From Pseudomonadota bacterium (GTDB taxonomy: Bacteria > Pseudomonadota > Gammaproteobacteria > Steroidobacterales > Steroidobacteraceae), in the NCBI GenBank assembly GCA_026398785.1, contig JAPLSF010000033.1:1-33368 (forward strand): a DNA stretch of 33,368 bases, written 5' to 3'. This document shows, one piece after another, positions 5,897-32,857 of the stretch (the stretch's first letter is position 1; every line of letters starts with the position of its first letter). Position numbers and translations under genes: made by a program. The notes beneath the pieces were generated by a model that worked only from the letters and a program-made list of their open reading frames with translations, was not told where the DNA came from and did not search any database.

Positions 5897-6970
5897 TTAT
5901 AGCAGAGAGGTGATTTTTCCGTGTTCCACGTGAAACCTTCGGGTCGCGGAAAGCCGTTGGAACGCTTCCATATTCGGGTCCAGGGCCGTCACGAAGAGCT
6001 GCCCCGGCAGCTCCAACACCACCGAGAGCAGCCGTTCCAGGTTGGCCACGTCGAGTTCTGCCGCAGGGTCATCCACAAGTAGCGCCGCCGTAGGACTGCC
6101 CAACACGTCATCGCATTTGAGCTGCCCAAGGAGCATCGCTGAGGCTGTCAGCTTCTGCTGACCGCGGGACACGCGGTGCTTGGCCAGATCCCCCGCCACG
6201 CGGATCGACAGGTCGGCTCGATGAGGACCGGAGTGCGTTGTCCCCCGCTCCCGGTCCCTCGGCCAGGAATGCTCGATCGCATCTCTCAGTTCAGTCCCGG
6301 CTGCCCAACCATCGCTGAGCGAGAGCTCGATGGTCGTGCCTAGAAGGCGCTGCCCGACCGCCGCGACGTAAGGCTGCAACTTGGCGAAGTACTCCCGGCG
6401 GGAAGTGGCCAGGGAACGGCCGGACTCCAACAGCTCCGGATCCCAGGCACGGACCACTTGTTCAGGCGCCTCGGCCCTCAACGCGGCGTTGCGCTGTTTG
6501 AGCGCGCGCTGGTACCGACGCCACTGCTCCACGAACCTTGGTTCCACGTGGAACACTCCCCAGTCCAGGTAGCGGCGACGCTCCTGTGGGCCCTCCTCAA
6601 CCAAGCGATGGACTTCGGGGTCAATCGCCTGCACCGGCAGGATCGTGGCAAGTTCAGCCAGGCTGCCAACCCGGTTGCCCGCCGCCCGGGCCTCGAATCC
6701 TTCCCGGCTGTACCGAACGCCGACCGGGCGGACACTTTCGCCGACTTCGAAGCGTCCCGTGAGCAGCAACTCCTGGGCGCCTTTGCGAATCAGGGTTTCG
6801 TTGCGGGTGGTGCGGAATGAGCGTCCACGCCCCAGAAAGAAGATCGCCTCCAACAGGCTGGTCTTGCCCGAGGCGTTTGCACCGCTGATCAGGTTGCAGC
6901 GGCCGTCGAATTCGAGATCCGTCGAGGCAATGCAACGGAAATCGCGGACCTCGAGGTGGCGCAGACTCAT
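5897..6970 (-). CDS. recF: DNA replication and repair protein RecF
   Basis: SMC-like ATPase that binds gapped DNA and, with RecO and RecR, loads RecA at stalled forks. The 357-aa length is normal. Walker A is GANASGKTS at residues 30-38, the ABC signature is SRGQQKL, and Walker B is LLVDDPAAELD. The start MSLRHLEVRDFRCI is the standard RecF N-terminus. The gene lies between dnaN (132-bp gap) and gyrB (28-bp gap) on the same strand. Two near-consensus parS sequences are inside its coding region (5922-5937 and 6540-6555), so part of the protein sequence (for example FHVEHG near the C-terminus) is set by a centromere site. Confidence 0.97.
   Translation of the reverse strand: MSLRHLEVRDFRCIASTDLEFDGRCNLISGANASGKTSLLEAIFFLGRGRSFRTTRNETLIRKGAQELLLTGRFEVGESVRPVGVRYSREGFEARAAGNRVGSLAELATILPVQAIDPEVHRLVEEGPQERRRYLDWGVFHVEPRFVEQWRRYQRALKQRNAALRAEAPEQVVRAWDPELLESGRSLATSRREYFAKLQPYVAAVGQRLLGTTIELSLSDGWAAGTELRDAIEHSWPRDRERGTTHSGPHRADLSIRVAGDLAKHRVSRGQQKLTASAMLLGQLKCDDVLGSPTAALLVDDPAAELDVANLERLLSVVLELPGQLFVTALDPNMEAFQRLSATRRFHVEHGKITSLL
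5922..5937. promoter_or_regulatory. parS-like ParB binding site 1 (in recF)
   Basis: TGTTCCACGTGAAACC, 15 of 16 bases of the parS consensus TGTTYCACGTGRAACA. It lies in the last codons of recF, just before the gyrB leader. Confidence 0.88.
6540..6555. promoter_or_regulatory. parS-like ParB binding site 2 (in recF)
   Basis: GGTTCCACGTGGAACA, 15 of 16 bases of the parS consensus, lying inside recF about 0.6 kb from site 1. Confidence 0.85.
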
Positions 6971-6988
6971 GGCGTCAGGCTAAACCGA

Positions 6989-7004
6989 TGTTCCACGTGG
7001 AACT
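6989..7004. promoter_or_regulatory. parS-like ParB binding site 3
   Basis: TGTTCCACGTGGAACT, 15 of 16 bases of the parS consensus, in the recF-dnaN gap 18 bp upstream of the recF start. It is part of a 28-bp segment (6988-7015) repeated nearly exactly at 7042-7069. Confidence 0.88.
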
Positions 7005-7042
7005 AACCTGAGCGCGTTCAGGACAACCGTACGTTCGCCGGA

Positions 7043-7058
7043 TGTTCCACGTGGAACC
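7043..7058. promoter_or_regulatory. parS-like ParB binding site 4
   Basis: TGTTCCACGTGGAACC, 15 of 16 bases of the parS consensus, 54 bp from site 3. The flanking AACCTTAGCG matches AACCTGAGCG beside site 3, so the pair looks like a local duplication. Confidence 0.88.
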
Positions 7059-7102
7059 AACCTTAGCGGCGCAGACCTGGACGTGCGCCAGCCCTCCGCC
7101 GC

Positions 7103-12494: not shown

Positions 12495-12570
12495 GCGCCG
12501 AGCCGCGGGTGAGGGCCCTGGCGTTGGACCCGGCATGTCCTGCCATGATCGGAAACGCGGACACGCGCGG

Positions 12571-12624
12571 GTTGCAGGCGGTCGATCCGGTACCTTGCCC
12601 CGAGCTTGAAAAGGCAGACGCGCG
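12571..12624 (+). repeat. Partial copy of the 18-nt-loop hairpin element
   Basis: It begins GTTGCAGGCGGTCGATCCGG, continues CCTTGCCCCGAGC and then has the core TTGAAAAGGCAGACGCGC. This is the left arm plus core of the hairpin family. The right arm is missing (GCACGGTG follows instead). Confidence 0.75.
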
Positions 12625-12647
12625 CACGGTGACAGGCGGTCGATCCG

Positions 12648-12697
12648 GTACCTTTCCCCGAGCTTGAAAAGGCAGACACGCGCTCGGGGAAAGGTAC
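12648..12697. repeat. Hairpin element H1 (16-bp arms, 18-nt loop)
   Basis: GTACCTTTCCCCGAGC (12648-12663) is exactly complementary to 12682-12697. The loop is TTGAAAAGGCAGACACGC. Beyond the right arm, GCCTG matches the CAGGC further out on the left after a gap of about ten bases, so longer arms may have been trimmed. Confidence 0.85.
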
Positions 12698-12706
12698 GCC
12701 TGAACT

Positions 12707-12728
12707 CGTTTTCGGCGCGCCGAAAACG
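12707..12728. repeat. Perfect 22-bp palindrome
   Basis: CGTTTTCGGCG followed immediately by its reverse complement, with no spacer. It lies between hairpin H1 and the TCGCACGGC tag and has no counterpart in locus 2. Confidence 0.8.
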
Positions 12729-12765
12729 TCGCACGGCGCAAGCAACGCCACCGCGCTCCGATCAA

Positions 12766-26036: not shown

Positions 26037-27047
26037 ATGACGTTTGACATAAAATCCTTCGAGGCGTTTCGCGTTCACCGACAGGGCGGCCAGATCACTG
26101 CCCAGTTCGACCAGATCGGGCTGTCCGACCTGACGGCGGGCGACGTGGTCGTGCGCGTGACGTACTCGGACATCAACTACAAAGACGCACTGGCCGCGAC
26201 GGGCACTGCGCCGATCCTGCGTAAGTATCCGCTGGTGGGCGGCATCGACCTGGCTGGCGAAGTCGTGTCTTCGTCTGATCCGCGGTTTGCGCCGGGGCAG
26301 CGGGTGCTCGTCACCGGTTGCGGTCTCAGCGAAACCCAGGACGGCGGTTACGCGGAATACGCGCGCGTGCAGGGCGACTGGGCCATTCCGATTCCACCCG
26401 GCATGACGGATGCGGATGCGATGAAGCTCGGCACCGCGGGATTTACGGCGGCGCTCGCGATTCATCGCATGGAGCAGAACGGCCAGCAGCCGCAGCACGG
26501 CCCCGTCGTCGTTACGGGCGCGACCGGCGGAGTCGGCAGCCTCGCCATCAACATGCTGGCTGGCCGCGGCTACGCAGTGGTCGCCGTGAGCGGCAAGCCC
26601 GAGGCGGACGCGTACCTGCACGAAATCGGCGCTTCGCAGATCCTGCGGCGCCAGTCGCTGGACCTCGGCACCAGGCCGATGGAAGCCGCACTGTGGGCCG
26701 GCGCCGTCGACAATGTCGGCGGCGAAGTGCTGACCTGGCTCACGCGCACCACGGGCTATGGCGGCAACATCGCCAGCGTCGGACTGGCCGCCAGCCACGA
26801 ACTGCACACCACGGTGATGCCGTTCATCCTGCGCGGCGTGAACCTGCTCGGCATCAATTCCGTCGCCACGCCGCGTGAGTTGCGGCTTGAGGTCTGGAAC
26901 CGCATCGCCACCGACCTGCGGCCGTCGAAGCTCGACCGCATCGCCGGTAAGTGCGTGAAGTTCAGCGAGCTGCCCGCGCAGTTTGGCGAATACATCGAGG
27001 GCCGGGTCATCGGCCGAACCGTGGTAAGGATCGCAAAGAACACATGA
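26037..27047 (+). CDS. acuI: YhdH/AcuI-type NADPH-dependent acrylyl-CoA reductase
   Basis: Medium-chain dehydrogenase/reductase of the YhdH/YhfP group, whose member AcuI reduces acrylyl-CoA to propionyl-CoA. The 336-aa protein shows [20 protein letters not shown] and [17 protein letters not shown] in the catalytic domain and the NADPH-binding [18 protein letters not shown] in the Rossmann domain. No zinc-site cysteine array is present, as expected for the group. The stop overlaps the first cysD by ATGA. Family placement is strong; activity on acrylyl-CoA is inferred. Confidence 0.88.
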
Positions 27048-28012
27048 CTACCAACATTGCCGCGACGAAGTCGCTCGCTGCGGCTGCAAAGGACAAGCCG
27101 TTGGTGACTCCGGAGCGGCTCACGCACCTGCAGCGCCTGGAGGCCGAGAGCATCCAGATCATGCGCGAGGTGGTCGCCGAGTGCGACAAGCCCGTCATGC
27201 TGTATTCGATCGGCAAGGACAGCGCCGCGATGCTGCATGTCGCGCTCAAGGCGTTCTATCCGGCCACGCTGCCGTTTCCCCTGCTGCATGTCGACACGCT
27301 GTGGAAGTTCAAGGCGATGTACGAGCTGCGCGCGCAGATCACGCAGAAGTACAACCTGCAGCTCATCGTGCACACGAACCCGGACGGCATCGCGCAGGGC
27401 ATCAATCCGTTCACGCACGGTTCGACGATCCACACCGACATCATGAAGACGCAGGGGCTCAAGCAGGCGCTCGACATGCACGGCTTCAATGCCGCCTTTG
27501 GCGGCGCGCGCCGCGACGAAGAAAAGAGCCGCGCCAAGGAGCGAGTCTTCTCATTCCGCTCGTCGCAGCATCGCTGGGATCCGAAGAATCAGCGGCCGGA
27601 ACTCTGGTCGCTCTTCAACACGCGCATGCACAAGAGCGAAAGCCTGCGCGTGTTCCCGATGTCGAACTGGACCGAGCTCGACATCTGGCAGTACATCTAC
27701 CTGCACGACATTCCGATCGTGCCGCTCTACTTCGCTGCCGTGCGGCCGGTGGTGGATCGCAACGGTACGCTGATCATGGTCGACGACGACCGCATGCCTT
27801 TGCACCCCGGCGAGAAGCCGATGCTGAAGAAGGTGCGCTTCCGCACGCTCGGGTGTTATCCGCTGACGGGTGCGATCGAGTCCGAGGCCGACACGCTCAC
27901 TGCGATCATCCAGGAGATGCTGCTCACCACGACTTCGGAACGGCAGGGTCGCATGATCGACCACGACCAGTCGGCGTCGATGGAAAAGAAGAAGCAGGAG
28001 GGCTACTTCTGA
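27044..28012 (+). CDS. cysD: Sulfate adenylyltransferase subunit 2, copy 1
   Basis: Catalytic subunit of ATP sulfurylase, which with CysN converts sulfate and ATP to APS. The 322-aa protein has the PP-loop [12 protein letters not shown] and the family signatures [42 protein letters not shown] and [13 protein letters not shown], all close to canonical CysD. About 20 extra residues at the N-terminus ([20 protein letters not shown]) are Ala/Lys-rich. ATG 27044 overlaps the acuI stop. A second, diverged CysD follows 37 bp downstream and then CysNC. Both copies end [10 protein letters not shown]. Confidence 0.95.
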
Positions 28013-28049
28013 GCCGCCGCGCAGCGTGGCTCACGCAGCAACCGCTACC

Positions 28050-28961
28050 ATGAACGACACCATCCATCTGACACACCTGCAGCGCCTCGAGGCGGAAAGC
28101 ATCCAGATCATGCGCGAGGTGGTCGCCGAGTGCGAACGCCCCGTGCTGCTGTACTCGATCGGCAAGGACAGCTCGGTGATGCTGCACGTGGCGCGCAAGG
28201 CCTTCTATCCCGCGCCGATCCCCTTCCCGTTGCTGCACATCGACTCGAGGTGGGAGTTCCGGGACATGTACGCGCTGCGCGAGCAGACCGCAGGACGCTA
28301 CGGAGTGCGCATCATTGCTCACCTCAATCCAGAGGCCGTGGCGATGGACGTGAACCCGTTCGATCACGGATCCCAGATTCATACCGACCTTTGGCGAACG
28401 CGGGGACTGAAGCAGGCGCTCGACGAGCACCGCTTCGACGCCGCCTTTGGCGGCGGTCGGCGCGATGAGGAGAAGAGCCGCGCCAAGGAGCGCATCTTCT
28501 CCTTCCGTTCGGCGCAGCACCGCTGGGACCCGAAGAACCAGCGCCCGGAGCTCTGGTCGCTCTACAACGCGCGCATGCACAAGGGCGAGTCGATCCGTGT
28601 CTTCCCGATCAGCAACTGGACTGAGCTCGACGTCTGGCAGTACATCCTGCTCGAGAAGATTCCGATGGTGCCGCTGTACCTCGCCGCCGAGCGCCCAGTG
28701 GTCGAGCGCGACGGCACGCTGATCATGGTCGACGACGAGCGCATGCGCCTCAACCCGGGTGAGGTGCCCAGGATGCGCCGCATCCGCTTCCGCACGCTCG
28801 GCTGCTATCCGCTGTCCGGCGCGGTGGAGTCGGACGCCGACACGTTGCCGAAAGTCATCCAGGAAATGCTGCTCGCGCGGACCAGCGAGCGCCAGGGTCG
28901 GCTCATCGACCACGACCAGAACGCCTCGATGGAGAAGAAGAAGCAGGAAGGCTACTTCTGA
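28050..28961 (+). CDS. cysD: Sulfate adenylyltransferase subunit 2, copy 2
   Basis: Second CysD paralogue, 303 aa from ATG 28050 (E. coli CysD is 302; in-frame GTG 28026 is less likely). The PP-loop [12 protein letters not shown] and the segment [19 protein letters not shown] are intact. It differs from copy 1 at otherwise conserved places: [15 protein letters not shown] against [15 protein letters not shown], and [14 protein letters not shown] against [15 protein letters not shown] 38-nt stretch is identical in both genes (27149-27186 and 28098-28135). By eye the proteins are roughly 70 percent identical. It lies 46 bp before cysNC. Both copies look functional. Confidence 0.94.
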
Positions 28962-29007: not shown

Positions 29008-30918
29008 ATGGCACACATCTCGGACCTGATCGCCACCGACATCGAGCAGTACCTGCACCAGCACGAGCACAAGAGCCTGCTGCGGTTCATCACCTGCGGC
29101 AGCGTCGACGATGGCAAGAGCACGCTGATCGGCCGTCTGCTCTACGACTCGAAGATGATCTTCGAGGACCAGCTCGCGGCGCTCGAGGCGGATTCGAAGA
29201 AAGTCGGAACGCAGGGCGGCGAACTCGATTTCGCCCTGCTGGTCGACGGCCTCGCTGCGGAACGCGAGCAGGGCATTACGATCGACGTGGCCTACCGCTT
29301 TTTCTCGACGGACAAGCGCAAGTTCATCGTCGCCGACACGCCGGGACACGAGCAGTACACGCGCAACATGGTGACGGGTGCGTCCAGCGCCGATCTCGCC
29401 GTGATACTGATCGACGCACGCAAGGGCGTGCTGACGCAGACACGCCGGCACAGCTACCTGGTGTCGCTGATCGGCATCAAGAAGGTCGTGCTCGCGATCA
29501 ACAAGATGGACCTGGTCGGGTACAGCGAGTCCACTTTCGACAAGATCGTCGAGGACTACACGGCGTTCGCCAGGCAGATCGGCATCAACGAGTTCGTCGC
29601 GATCCCGGTGTCGGGCCTGCGCGGCGACAACATCAAGGACCCGAGCGCGCACACGGACTGGTACCACGGGCCGACGCTGATGGGTTACCTCGAGACCGTC
29701 AACATCGAGGACGTCGCCCAGCATCGGCCGCTGCGAATGCCGGTGCAGTGGGTCAACCGCCCGAACCTCGACTTTCGTGGTTTTGCCGGCACGATCGCGA
29801 GCGGCATGGTGAAGCAAGGTGAGCGGGTTCGCGTGCTGCCCTCGGGCCGCGAGAGCACCGTCACGCGCATCGTGACGATGGACGGCGATCTCGACCACGC
29901 GATCGCTGGCCAGGCGATCACGCTCACGCTCGCCGACGAGATCGACATCAGCCGTGGTGACGTCATCGCCCGGCCGGACGACCTGCCGGGCGTCGCCGAT
30001 CAGTTCGAGGCGGTCGTCGTGTGGATGTCCGACGAACCGATGCTGCCTGGACGCCCGTACTGGCTGAAGATCGGCACCAAGCAGGTCGCCGCGACGATCA
30101 CGGAGCCGAAGTACAAGGTGAACGTCAACACGCTCGAGCACCTGGCGGCAAAGAAGCTCGAGTTGAACGAGATTGGCATCTGCAACGTGTCGCTCGACCA
30201 GCCGATCGCATTCGACCCGTACGAGCAGTGCCACGAGACCGGCTCGTTCATCCTGATCGACCGCCTCACCAACGCCACGGTCGGCGCGGGCATGATTCAT
30301 TTTGCCCTGCGTCGTTCGCAGAACATCCACTGGCAGGCGCTCGACGTGAACACGAAGTCGCGTGCGGCGCTCAAGGGGCAGCAGCCCGCGGTGTTGTGGC
30401 TGACGGGTCTGTCGGGCGCCGGCAAGTCGACGATCGCCAACATGGTCGAGAAGCGGCTGCTGGCCCTCGGCAAGCACACCTACCTGCTCGACGGCGACAA
30501 CGTTCGCCACGGCTTGAACCGGGACCTGGGCTTCACCGATGCCGACCGCGTCGAGAACATCCGGCGTGTGGCCGAAGTCAGCAAGCTGATGGCGGATGCC
30601 GGCCTGATCGTGCTCGTTAGCTTCATTTCACCGTTCCGGGCCGAGCGCCGCATGGCGCGTGCGCTGTTCCAGACGGGCGAATTCCATGAAGTTCACGTCG
30701 ATACCCCGCTCGCGGTCGCGGAGACACGCGACGTAAAGGGCCTGTACAAGAAGGCCCGTCGCGGCGAGCTCAAGAACTTCACCGGCATCGATTCGCCATA
30801 CGAAGCGCCCGAGAACCCGGAGATCTACATCGACACGACCAGGCGCACATCCGAACAGTCGGCCGAGGCGATCGTCGAGTACCTGCAGCAGGCTGGGGTG
30901 CTCAGTCCGGCCCACTAA
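29008..30918 (+). CDS. cysN: Bifunctional sulfate adenylyltransferase subunit 1 / APS kinase (CysNC)
   Basis: A 636-aa fusion. The N-terminal CysN GTPase drives APS synthesis with CysD: G1 [20 protein letters not shown]3 DTPGHEQY, G4 NKMD, then elongation-factor-like beta barrels. The C-terminal CysC domain phosphorylates APS to PAPS: P-loop GLSGAGKST near residue 466, then [15 protein letters not shown] and [13 protein letters not shown]. The start [20 protein letters not shown] is the usual CysNC N-terminus. Coupling both activities channels sulfate to PAPS for assimilation or sulfonation. It ends the acuI-cysD-cysD-cysNC run, and the repeat locus begins within about 10 bp. Confidence 0.96.
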
Positions 30919-30927
30919 GCGAACCAC

Positions 30928-31039
30928 GTTGCAGGCGGCCGATCCGGTACCATTTCCTGGGCTCGGAAAGCCGGGCACGCGCCAATTGCGAGCGCCTGCT
31001 CCGGTTCTCTTTCCGGCGAGCGGCAAGGCAGGCACGCGT
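30928..31039 (+). repeat. Two diverged partial copies of the hairpin element
   Basis: Copy one (30928-30982) starts GTTGCAGGCGGCCGATCCGG and ends with a degenerate core (GGGCTCGGAAAGCCGGGCAC). Copy two (30985-31039) reads TGCTCCGGTTCTCTTTCC and then GGCAAGGCAGGCACGCG. Both keep the AAGGC-GRCACGCG part of the core but lack a matching right arm. Confidence 0.6.
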
Positions 31040-31047
31040 TGACGTCA

Positions 31048-31127
31048 CAAGCGGTTGCTCCGGAGTCTTTCCCCGAGCTTGGAAAGGCAGACACGCGCTC
31101 GGGGAAAGACTCCGGAGCAACCGCTTG
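31048..31127. repeat. Hairpin element H2 (31-bp perfect arms, 18-nt loop)
   Basis: Positions 31048-31078 are exactly complementary to 31097-31127. The loop is TTGGAAAGGCAGACACGC. Only the inner part of the arm (CTTTCCCCGAGC) resembles H1; the outer 19 bases (CAAGCGGTTGCTCCGGAGT) are specific to this copy but still perfectly paired. Confidence 0.95.
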
Positions 31128-31296
31128 CGAGACTGCGCCTGCGCATCTTCCACGCAGGCGGAAAGGATCGCACGGCGCATGCAACGTCGATTTCGCACCC
31201 TCACCCCCAAAGCGGGAGGTCGGCTGCAGGCCGGATGAGGGTCCTGGCGTCTGACCCGGCATGTCCTGTCGCGATCGCAAAGGCTGACACTCGATA

Positions 31297-31384
31297 GTTG
31301 CAGGCGGCCGATCCGGTAGCTTGCCCCGAGCGCGTGTCTGCCTTTCCAAGCTCGGGGCAAGGTACCGGATCGGTCGCCTGCAAC
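31297..31384. repeat. Hairpin element H3 (35-bp arms, inverted 18-nt loop)
   Basis: Positions 31297-31331 pair with 31350-31384 at 33 of 35 positions. The loop GCGTGTCTGCCTTTCCAA is the exact reverse complement of the H2 loop, although the inner arms (CCCCGAGC ... GCTCGGGG) keep the same order. Confidence 0.95.
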
Positions 31385-31386
31385 CC

Positions 31387-31437
31387 GCACGTGTCTGCCT
31401 TTCCAAGCTTGGGGAAAGGCACGGGATCGGCCGCCTG
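31387..31437 (-). repeat. Inverted partial copy of the hairpin element
   Basis: On the plus strand it reads GTGTCTGCCTTTCCAAGCTT and then GGGGAAAGG ... GGATCGGCCGCC, i.e. core plus one arm in reverse orientation. It ends 7 bp before the stop codon of the regulator gene. Confidence 0.7.
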
Positions 31438-31444
31438 GGAGACA

Positions 31445-32857
31445 TCACTCGATCGAAAACGGGACGATGCGCCGTTCGTTCGTCCGGACGGTGAGCTTTC
31501 GACCGAGCGGCGGGAACGCGCGCTGGTGGCAATCGGGTCGCTCACAGATGCGGCAACTGACGCCAACGGGCACGGCCGCGCCATCGAGGCTGAGCCCTTC
31601 CGAGTAGACGACCTTATCGGCATGGGCGACTTCACAGCCGATGCCGATTGCGTATTGCCGGTTGGGGCGCAGGAAGTTGCCCGAACGTTTGACGATGCTG
31701 CGTCCCACGCACAGGTAGCGGACACCGTCTGGCATCTCCGCGACCTGCACCAGGATGCGGCCGGGATGACCGAAGGCCTCGTGCACGTTCCACAGCGGGC
31801 ATGCCCCACCGAAACGCGCGAACTGGAAGCGCGTCGAGCTGTGTCGCTTGGTGATGTTGCCGGCCTGGTCCACGCGCACGAAATAGAACGGCACGCCGCG
31901 CGCGCCCGGCCGTTGCAGCGTGCTCAGGCGGTGCGACACCTGCTCGAAGCTCGCGTTGTAGCGGTGCTGCAGTTGCTCGATGTCGTGGCGCAATTCCATT
32001 GCCGACGCCGCGAAGCGCCGGTACGGCATCACTAGCGCACCCGCCGCGTAATTGAGCAGACCGATGCGGGCAATGTCGCGTGCAGTCGCCGACTCGAGCT
32101 CGGCCGTCGCCAGCACGTCATTGCAGAGGTCCGTAAAGAGCAGATCGGCCAGTTGCGTCGCGAGCTGGAACGCACGAGTCGGCTCGGCCAGGTCGCGGTC
32201 GAGCGTCAGCACCTTCGTTGCGGGATCGTAATGACGGATCAGTCCGGCATCCGCCTGGGCCCGAACGACGCGGATACCGAACCGATCCGTCAGCGCCCGC
32301 TCAAGCGTGGCCACGGCATTGCCATCGCCGTCGATGCCGATGTCGGCCGCGAGCGCTTCGGCCGCGACGTCCAGTTCATCGACGTAGTTGTCGCGGTAAT
32401 GGAAGAAGTCCCGAACTTCCTGGTACGGCACCAGCGAGTCCGGCGCGTCCTCGGTCCGCATCCGCACCGTCTCGTCGAAGCGCAGGATCCGCTCATCGAG
32501 CGCGCGGTAGGCCCGGTGCAGGGCAAGGTACTGGCGAGCCAGTGTCGGGGTCGTGGCCGCCGCCATCTTAAGTTCCGAAAGTGCAGGGGACGGGAGCCCC
32601 AGGCCGAGGTCGGCGCTGGCCTCACGCAGGTCGGCGATCAACCGGGTTTCCTCGTCGCTGTCGAACTCACCTGGACCGACGGCGAAGATCCGCGAGAGCG
32701 CGATCAGGACCCGGGCAGTCACCGGCCGCTGGTTCGTCTCGATCTGTGACAGGTAGCTGGTCGAAAGCCCCAGCAGCTTGGCGCACGCATCGAGGGTGAG
32801 GCTCTGGCGTTCGCGCAGGGCCCGGACCTTCGGGCCGACAAACAGTTTGTCACGCAT
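31445..32857 (-). CDS. ScfR/PrpR-type short-chain fatty acyl transcriptional regulator
   Basis: Transcription factor of the ScfR group (RamB, MccR and Mycobacterium PrpR belong here), which senses acyl-CoA species and controls propionate and glyoxylate metabolism. I choose ATG 32857 (470 aa); the upstream 50 in-frame codons include the promoter. An Xre helix-turn-helix is at the N-terminus ([20 protein letters not shown]). A central IrrE-like region and the C-terminal ScfR domain ([20 protein letters not shown]) follow. A cysteine cluster near the end, CRICERPDC plus Cys in GIGCEVAH, resembles the region that, as I recall, binds an Fe-S cluster in mycobacterial PrpR. It is divergent from prpB, its probable target. 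Confidence 0.9.

Follow-up and report, generated by a model that had tools for sequence, protein, structure and literature searches.

The stretch of DNA analysed here (the window, 33,368 nt) is an entire contig of the draft genome G000 (3.12 Mb in 409 contigs). It carries dnaN, recF-like, and yidC genes, and a GTTCCACGTGGAAC palindrome occurs three times adjoining the recF-like and dnaN genes (6524-6555, 6987-7014, and 7041-7068), and the copies look like parS sites; by both features, the window is probably origin-proximal. Two neighbouring genes of the PAPS-reductase family (PF01507) at 27044-28961 are 76 to 82% alike across three aligned stretches and look like tandem duplicates. Three hairpins, H1 to H3, lie in gaps between genes. 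The H2/H3 pair takes up the space between a cysN/cysC-type sulfate activation gene (end at 30918) and a convergent gene for an ScfRs/IrrE-type regulator (end at 31445), and H1 is placed after yidC.

H2 (31045-31130, plus strand; 103 bits with model R1) consists of an arm (31045-31078), the 18-nt loop TTGGAAAGGCAGACACGC (31079-31096) between CCCCGAGC and GCTCGGGG, and the opposing arm (31097-31130). H3 (31298-31383; 98 bits with model R1) is the element of H2 on the minus strand, with inner arms identical to those of H2 and a loop (31332-31349) that is the exact reverse complement of TTGGAAAGGCAGACACGC. H1 (12630-12697, plus strand) has the loop TTGAAAAGGCAGACACGC (12664-12681), one change from TTGGAAAGGCAGACACGC, and its right arm is shortened to 16 bp. 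These direct sequence reads agree with the loops given in an earlier sequence-only reading of the window, and the arms of H2 and H3 exceed its description (34 nt at 97% for the 31079 loop; 33 of 35 paired for the 31332 loop).

Further parts of the element went beyond that description. On the 3' side of the 31079 loop is a second hairpin (31135-31178, plus strand), with a conserved foot GCGCCTG ... GCACGGCGC and a variable stem, and another directly follows H1 (12698-12739, plus strand), with the foot GCCTGAAC ... GCACGGCGC. Arm-less tandem units (arm plus loop) with a period of 57 to 58 nt precede the loops on the 5' side. The H1 copy has one at 12571-12623 (loop 12606-12623, 2 mismatches) and a decayed loop of a further 5' unit at 12549-12566; H2 has a decayed unit at 30928-30982 (3 mismatches at 30965-30981) and, just 5' of the hairpin, a unit with its loop at 31020-31037 (2 mismatches), all on the plus strand. 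H3 has a minus-strand unit on its 5' side (31385-31440; loop 31389-31406, 1 mismatch) and a decayed plus-strand loop on its 3' side (31277-31293). When folded as single-stranded DNA, H2 and H3 reached -39 to -45 kcal/mol (z of -9.9 to -13.6), and H1 had a z of -4.1. A 15-nt core with up to three mismatches occurs 10 times in the window versus 1.8 expected, a number reached by none of 100 shuffles, and a 17-nt core at the same tolerance gave 83 matches in the whole genome versus 12 for a reversed control pattern. No Rfam 15 family reached its gathering score in the window; a permissive search of 30900-31500 gave 18 matches, mostly to microRNA precursors, and Rfam families were rejected because all of these fell below the gathering score.

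H1, H2, and H3 belong to an intergenic palindrome family that has so far been seen in one genus of uncultured bacteria; the named records that share it are Gammaproteobacteria MAGs. Few copies, which the sequence-only reading had named as counting against it, are not what was found: the loci examined in three same-genus genomes contain 46 (G000), 69 (G007), and 59 (G004) paired hairpins, numbers used here instead of first counts of at least 61, 63, and 68 that possibly count both strands of a palindrome. The genomes are drafts (78 to 91% complete), and the loci were fetched for carrying hairpins, so that empty sites are under-sampled. Early analyses of gene context and orientation used 81 loci and later ones 117, with L301 omitted because it overlaps L176. 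Loops with at most one mismatch were found in 4 of 98 genomes searched, namely, G000, G004, G007, and, as a lone unpaired match, G037. A covariance model made from 60 hairpins (78 before removal of near-duplicates) also scored in the sister genomes G006, G008, G001, G002, and G003, where part of the weak matches fall inside genes by chance. It gave two weak matches at one place in G032, of another genus, and no match in 51 of 60 genomes, including G005.

Throughout the family the build is a conserved 18-nt loop on a stem of about 28 bp, many copies having the second hairpin on the 3' side and arm-less units on the 5' side; genome-wide, the loops are nearly invariant and the stems vary strongly. 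The second hairpin, searched with a stricter foot pattern, occurs in six of the nine genomes of the genus, and one subfamily has about 125 to 185 nt downstream in common. In L095 (contig C5 of G008), a palindrome of some 33 bp containing GGGGACATTC takes up the stem of the second hairpin and resembles another palindrome family, and in L096 of G001 a similar GGGGACATTCTGATTTTC palindrome makes the stem around a GGAAAGGCAGACA loop. Searches of the available literature listed no published description of the hairpin family. A phage origin was rejected: the 16-nt core occurs exactly in 40 viral-contig stretches, none of which shows arm pairing (8 of 20 positions at best), and these copies therefore look like chance matches.

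The opposite loops of H2 and H3 had been read as the signature of inversion. This does not follow. With complementary arms A and A', A-L-A' reads as A-L'-A' on the opposite strand, so that a copy of the whole element in the opposite direction mimics a flipped loop, and a convergent pair of opposite copies suffices. The parts beside the loop allow the direction of a copy to be told. Among 138 distinct hairpins, a direct arm-less unit lies 5' in 39, and neither an inverted unit on the 5' side nor a direct unit on the 3' side was found in any; opposite units on the 3' side occur in three, which are H3 and its two orthologs. Of 175 distinct hairpins, 64 have the second hairpin 3' of the loop, 1 has it 5', and 110 have it on neither side. 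With a looser test of the 138 hairpins the second hairpin was only 3' in 52, on both sides in 1, and only 5' in 4; three of these four were judged false by eye, and the fourth is L145, described below. H2 and H3 each have an arm-less unit 5' of their own loop. Among 128 clusters, 82 contain a single hairpin, and the 46 with two hairpins comprise 45 in the +- arrangement, none in -+, and 1 in ++. The orientation of the window's pair is kept at the orthologous locus in G000, G004 (L203), and G007 (L152). Inversion at H2/H3 was therefore rejected on the polarity marks and the orthologs: H2 and H3 are two copies in opposite, convergent orientation. Given the decayed opposite unit beside H3, an old flip of H3 may have preceded the split of the three species. 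As a caution, finding opposite loops between equal arms does not on its own amount to evidence of inversion.

Gene context was assessed with our own codon-usage caller, which is error-prone. For 117 hairpins with both neighbours called, the setting was convergent in 59, co-directional sense in 33, co-directional antisense in 20, and divergent in 5; these hairpin-chosen stretches contain 298 gaps of 80 bp or more, 67 of them convergent and 92 divergent. Lone hairpins in co-directional gaps were mostly in the sense orientation, 3' of a same-sense gene (17 to 3; two-sided p = 0.003). When a co-directional gap holds a pair of hairpins, one member is antisense (16 of 34 pairs). In the 98 hairpins with an upstream gene in the same direction, the loop lies a median of 89 nt past the stop codon.

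To what extent copies come and go was read from a less biased sample of 14 random G000 clusters, taken from the 32 with both flanking genes, at the corresponding sites of G004 and G007. Of the 28 site-genome pairs, 26 gave a flank match (one G007 flank, counted as hairpin present, at only 75% identity and another at 79%) and 2 gave none. The hairpin was present at 18 of the 26, cut off by a contig end at 3, and not seen at 5; one G004 contig stops 196 bases past the flank. Most copies are thus older than these species, though presence varies. Hairpins were lost or trimmed in L273 of G004 and L146 of G000, the hairpin of L178 in G007 was excised with a scar while its second hairpin was kept, and a hairpin of another type has taken the place of the original at L157/L191, so that a supposed inversion there is a replacement. 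A hairpin in G000 (L126, 1116) and one in G007 (L158, 4273) are identical at 56 of 56 arm positions, at non-corresponding places and beside partly different gene pairs, which suggests rearrangement or copying between loci. At one orthologous site (L132 in G000, L195 in G004, and L263 in G006), the pair encloses about 0.36 kb in G006 and 1.4 to 1.6 kb in G004 and G000, and the enclosed contents look different.

A REP/BIME- or MITE-like non-autonomous element, mobile at present and spread by a transposase acting on hairpins, would account for the dozens of dispersed copies and their scarcity in divergent gaps (5 of 117, against 92 of 298 gaps), for the subfamily with common downstream sequence, and for hairpins swapped, lost, or missing at orthologous sites. 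The age of most copies (18 of 26) speaks against it. Neither a clean empty site with a target duplication nor an autonomous parent was found. The transposases do not follow the copies. Among the nine incomplete drafts of the genus, Y1_Tnp (PF01797) was not found in G000, G007, or G001, yet it is present in the other six, which include G004 and copy-poor genomes, and Y2_Tnp occurs only in G004, G005, and G007. On these distributions, a RAYT and an IS91-type Y2 transposase were both rejected as partners of the hairpins. In L259 (contig C60 of G007, 895-2938), an integrase-like gene adjoins a strong Y2 transposase gene, an IS91-like pair. Overall, we regard current mobility of this kind as rather unlikely.

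The stems were examined for covariation. In the alignment of 60 hairpins, 95.2% of 1,674 cells pair, and each of the 28 pairs has been altered on both sides; double changes account for 348 cells, while 7 cells are one-sided with a standard pair, 80 are unpaired, and 9 are G-U. Shuffled alignments had 80 doubly changed cells on average, and none of 500 reached 348. When the partner was slid by one to three columns, the covariation score fell from 0.581 to at most 0.158. Strict pairing was 0.96 at stem position 28, 0.61 at position 29, and 0.30 at position 33.

The same pattern was found between orthologs. In 44 two-flank pairs of the same orientation, a non-independent set from three genomes (18 clusters of unequal number, 19 duplicates, and the flip were excluded), 922 of 1,232 stem positions are unchanged, 184 have compensated changes, 105 one-sided changes, and 21 other changes. 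Double changes numbered 205 versus 54 expected if the arms were independent. Of the compensated changes, 89 are transversions, and since transversions lack a G-U intermediate, these count for arm-to-arm copying. Across the same pairs, the loops differ at 24 of 792 positions versus changes at about 21% per arm; flanks differ at about 9% (median identity, 91%), which is not an estimate of the neutral rate. Together, these numbers indicate stems that change fast yet stay paired and a loop that is held. No core mismatch was found in 107 of 130 hairpin loops, and none had three; hairpins were found by loop similarity with up to three mismatches, so that diverged loops are under-counted, but this distribution indicates that loop conservation is more than an effect of the cut-off. 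One diverged loop was seen at an orthologous site (L191). Perfect loops occur in 8 of 24 arm-less units versus these 107 of 130 hairpins, a rough comparison because both sets were found by similarity.

Structural selection alone, in which an RNA or single-stranded DNA hairpin is selected and two-step compensatory mutations keep it paired, would fit the conserved loop, the constant stem length, and the placement of lone co-directional hairpins 3' of a same-sense gene (17 of 20). It would also fit the mismatches. In 122 hairpins, loop-strand mismatches comprised 82 A.C, 25 G.T, and 57 others; common ancestry inflates this skew (positions 23 and 24 hold 26 A.C), which without those positions is still 56 to 24, and the bias hints that the complementary strand may be the folded strand. 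The same skew speaks against the sense RNA as the selected molecule. Also against this reading, one hairpin is antisense in 16 of 34 pairs, those in co-directional gaps, compensated changes outnumber one-sided ones (184 versus 105) and almost half are transversions, and G-U cells are 9 of 1,674. We consider structural selection alone to be improbable.

Loop orientation at orthologous sites was compared directly. Pairs with unequal hairpin numbers or an arm similarity below 30/56 were left out (an earlier pairing had kept only pairs with at least 34/56), and the resulting 75 comparisons comprised 70 with the same orientation and 5 called flipped. Pairs tied by two flanks gave 43 same and 1 flipped (the 44 same-orientation pairs above were counted without the arm-similarity cut), and pairs tied by one flank gave 27 same and 4 flipped calls, one of them verified. 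Upon inspection of the five calls, two stood. Two that paired L149:4061 with L178 and L271 had the wrong hairpin and were dropped, as was the L200/L143 call, which was mis-assigned (71% flank identity). A further candidate, G000 L149 near 4706 compared with G007 L178 and G004 L271, is a decayed arm plus loop with no right arm; it was not counted and may be a decayed third flip.

The first inversion lies at locus X, a 102-bp gap between convergent genes (G007 L170 and G004 L202). Flanks and arms are collinear between the two genomes, and the loop is inverted, with one further base different. A mismatch in the arms, 6 bp away from the loop, lies on opposite sides in the two genomes, showing that the inversion took in the loop and at least 6 inner arm bases; when the loop is inverted together with 6 to 22 bases of arm, 1 mismatch remains, versus 15 for a collinear alignment. 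G000 has unrelated DNA at locus X and no hairpin. The roughly 108 bp between the locus X genes in L308 and L313 (contig C285 of G000) contain another imperfect palindrome, AGTGATCAGTG...CACTGATC.

The automatic search linked the two copies of the second inversion (G000 L145 and G004 L269) through a single flank, and alignment confirmed the case. The loop is flipped, and in G000 the second hairpin lies on the side that fits the G004 orientation. The outgroups G002 and G003 have the G004 orientation, judged by eye from a match on one side and with another loop type, and no hairpin was found at this site in G007. From the side of the second hairpin and the two outgroups, the flip most likely arose in the window's species. 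Past the stem, at positions 29 to 48, the flanks pair at 16 of 20 positions in G000 L145 and at 5 of 20 in G004, and the left sides of the two loci agree at 46 of 52 positions while the right sides agree at 29 of 52. These values indicate that the right flank in G000 was rewritten from the left as a reverse-complement copy, a footprint of replication template switching and not of an invertase. Of the two routes to inversion offered by the sequence-only reading, recombination between the arms and template switching, it is the latter that L145 matches.

True loop inversion thus occurs in the family, rarely, with two verified cases. The inversion idea fails for H2 and H3, the copies on which it was built, but it holds for two other orthologous loci; a loop orientation fixed at every locus, which had been named as the finding that would count against it, is nearly what was found (70 of 75), though not wholly. 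An invertible switch, in which a site-specific recombinase turns the loop over between its arms in the manner of phase-variable promoters, would draw on the same two inversions and on the layout of a loop between inverted repeats. Orientation is nevertheless kept in 70 of 75 comparisons, the flank outside the stem of L145 was overwritten, which a conservative recombinase does not do, and the arms are so variable that a fixed arm site is unlikely. We consider such a switch very unlikely.

Another reading takes the hairpins as integron attC sites spread from a cassette array. An integron integrase is present in G004 (456 bits) and, as a partial match just below the cut-off of 265 bits, in G000 (261 bits), but neither integrase contig (L257, contig C340 of G000; L258, contig C14 of G004) has a hairpin copy. 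The G000 contig instead has small reverse-strand genes in a row with ordinary attC-like sites, GCCTAAC...GTTAGGC, and G007, with 69 hairpins, has no integron integrase over the cut-off. This reading was not supported, and we give it a negligible probability. Nor is an assembly artefact, in which chimeric inverted reads make palindromes or flips, at all credible for the family as a whole: the assemblies are drafts and several copies lie near contig ends, but the unit is short (about 86 bp) and palindromes with differing stems and loops stand at orthologous sites of separate genomes.

The loops differ between lineages. At three orthologous sites, sister species carry hairpins of the same build with other loops where G000, G004, and G007 carry GGAAAGGCAGACACGC; these loops centre on GAAGAAGACATGC, vary somewhat more, and do not all end in ACAYGC. 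The sites are those of G006 L265 and G001 L266 with G007 L189, of G006 L263 with G004 L195 and G000 L132, and of the second inversion in G002 and G003. A joint change of a conserved loop across many sites would point to a partner that recognises it. None of the enzymes tested (Y1_Tnp, Y2_Tnp, and integron integrase) tracks the hairpin family. A tentative possibility is that the loop is the docking site of a lineage-specific factor that reads post-gene hairpins chromosome-wide. If the factor changed, many loops would change together while stems need only pair; orientation would matter, and most template-switch flips would be lost. The smaller share of perfect loops in arm-less units (8 of 24), a rough figure, would fit this possibility, as would the other loops of the sister species.

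Taken together, we hold with good confidence an account in three parts: the opposite loops of H2 and H3 are opposite copies, the arms are copied from each other by template switching that also gives rare flips, and the loop is kept by whatever reads it. The joint changes of the arms and the two inversions are direct results of the comparisons. The polymerase step we infer from the footprint: a replicating DNA polymerase would fold back at the hairpin and copy one arm from the other, which would explain why stems change fast with both arms jointly, and the same fold-back would occasionally copy the loop off the complementary strand and leave it inverted. The conservation of the loop would, in turn, be due to a reader, most likely a protein or RNA that is not the same in every lineage. 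Unpaired variants may also be purged by selection on the fold, since a purely mutational account does not predict the fixed stem length and the conserved loop. There are precedents for both kinds of change: the available text of PMC8604942 describes a flip and arm rewriting in one event at yeast REG2, and in that of PMC8794818 RNA genes, bacterial ones included, show compensated changes in their stems and inverted loops. With dozens of hairpins of one family in a few related genomes, arm copying and inversion can be counted at orthologs and polarised by outgroups. The family is thereby a natural test of template switching versus selection in keeping bacterial palindromes perfect.

Among known systems, REP/BIME elements with their RAYT are intergenic, present in many copies, of alternating orientation, and rare in divergent promoter gaps, and the present family is like them in each of these respects. 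It differs in that the loop is conserved and not a foot motif beside the stem (in alignment A1, columns beyond the stem and loop all stay below 90% conservation), in its longer stem, and in that a Y1 transposase was not found in two of the three copy-rich genomes. MITEs leave empty sites with a target duplication and have an autonomous parent; the sites without a hairpin seen here are locus X in G000, with its unrelated DNA, L178, with a scar, and 5 of the 26 sampled sites. Integron attC sites keep structure while their sequence varies, have R boxes of the form RYYYAAC...GTTRRRY, and lie in a cassette array behind intI. The hairpins share with them the precedence of structure over sequence and a mismatch skew that suggests one folded strand, but alignment A1 has no R-box columns, and there are no array and no copies on the intI contigs. 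In chloroplast genomes, small inversions arise where a hairpin loop between short inverted repeats flips, and the flips at orthologous sites here are alike; to our knowledge, chloroplast inversions are not a repeat family with a conserved loop.

Stem-loop repeat families (PMC2267715) are likewise intergenic repeats with a common stem-loop. An invariant loop on a freely covarying stem sets the present family apart from those described in the available text of that paper, and this genus is not among the entries of its table as available. There is a close likeness to template-switch inversions, which in the available text of PMC8604942 and PMC8794818 have a joint change of both arms in one step, an exact reverse complement of the spacer at the ortholog, and flip and arm rewriting in one event. 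Here, a reverse-complement spacer between collinear flanks was found in G007 L170/G004 L202 and G000 L145/G004 L269, and arm copying in the right flank of L145 and the 184 compensated changes. Unlike those cases, there are dozens of related hairpins with long stems and a conserved 18-nt loop; the yeast spacer inversions alter 2 to 5 bases and lie in genes (PMC8604942), and the loop inversions in RNA genes are mostly of 4 nt and up to 7 to 8 (PMC8794818), again as far as the available text of both papers goes. The family is thus a real hairpin repeat that bears the footprints of arm copying by template switching and of infrequent inversion of the loop.
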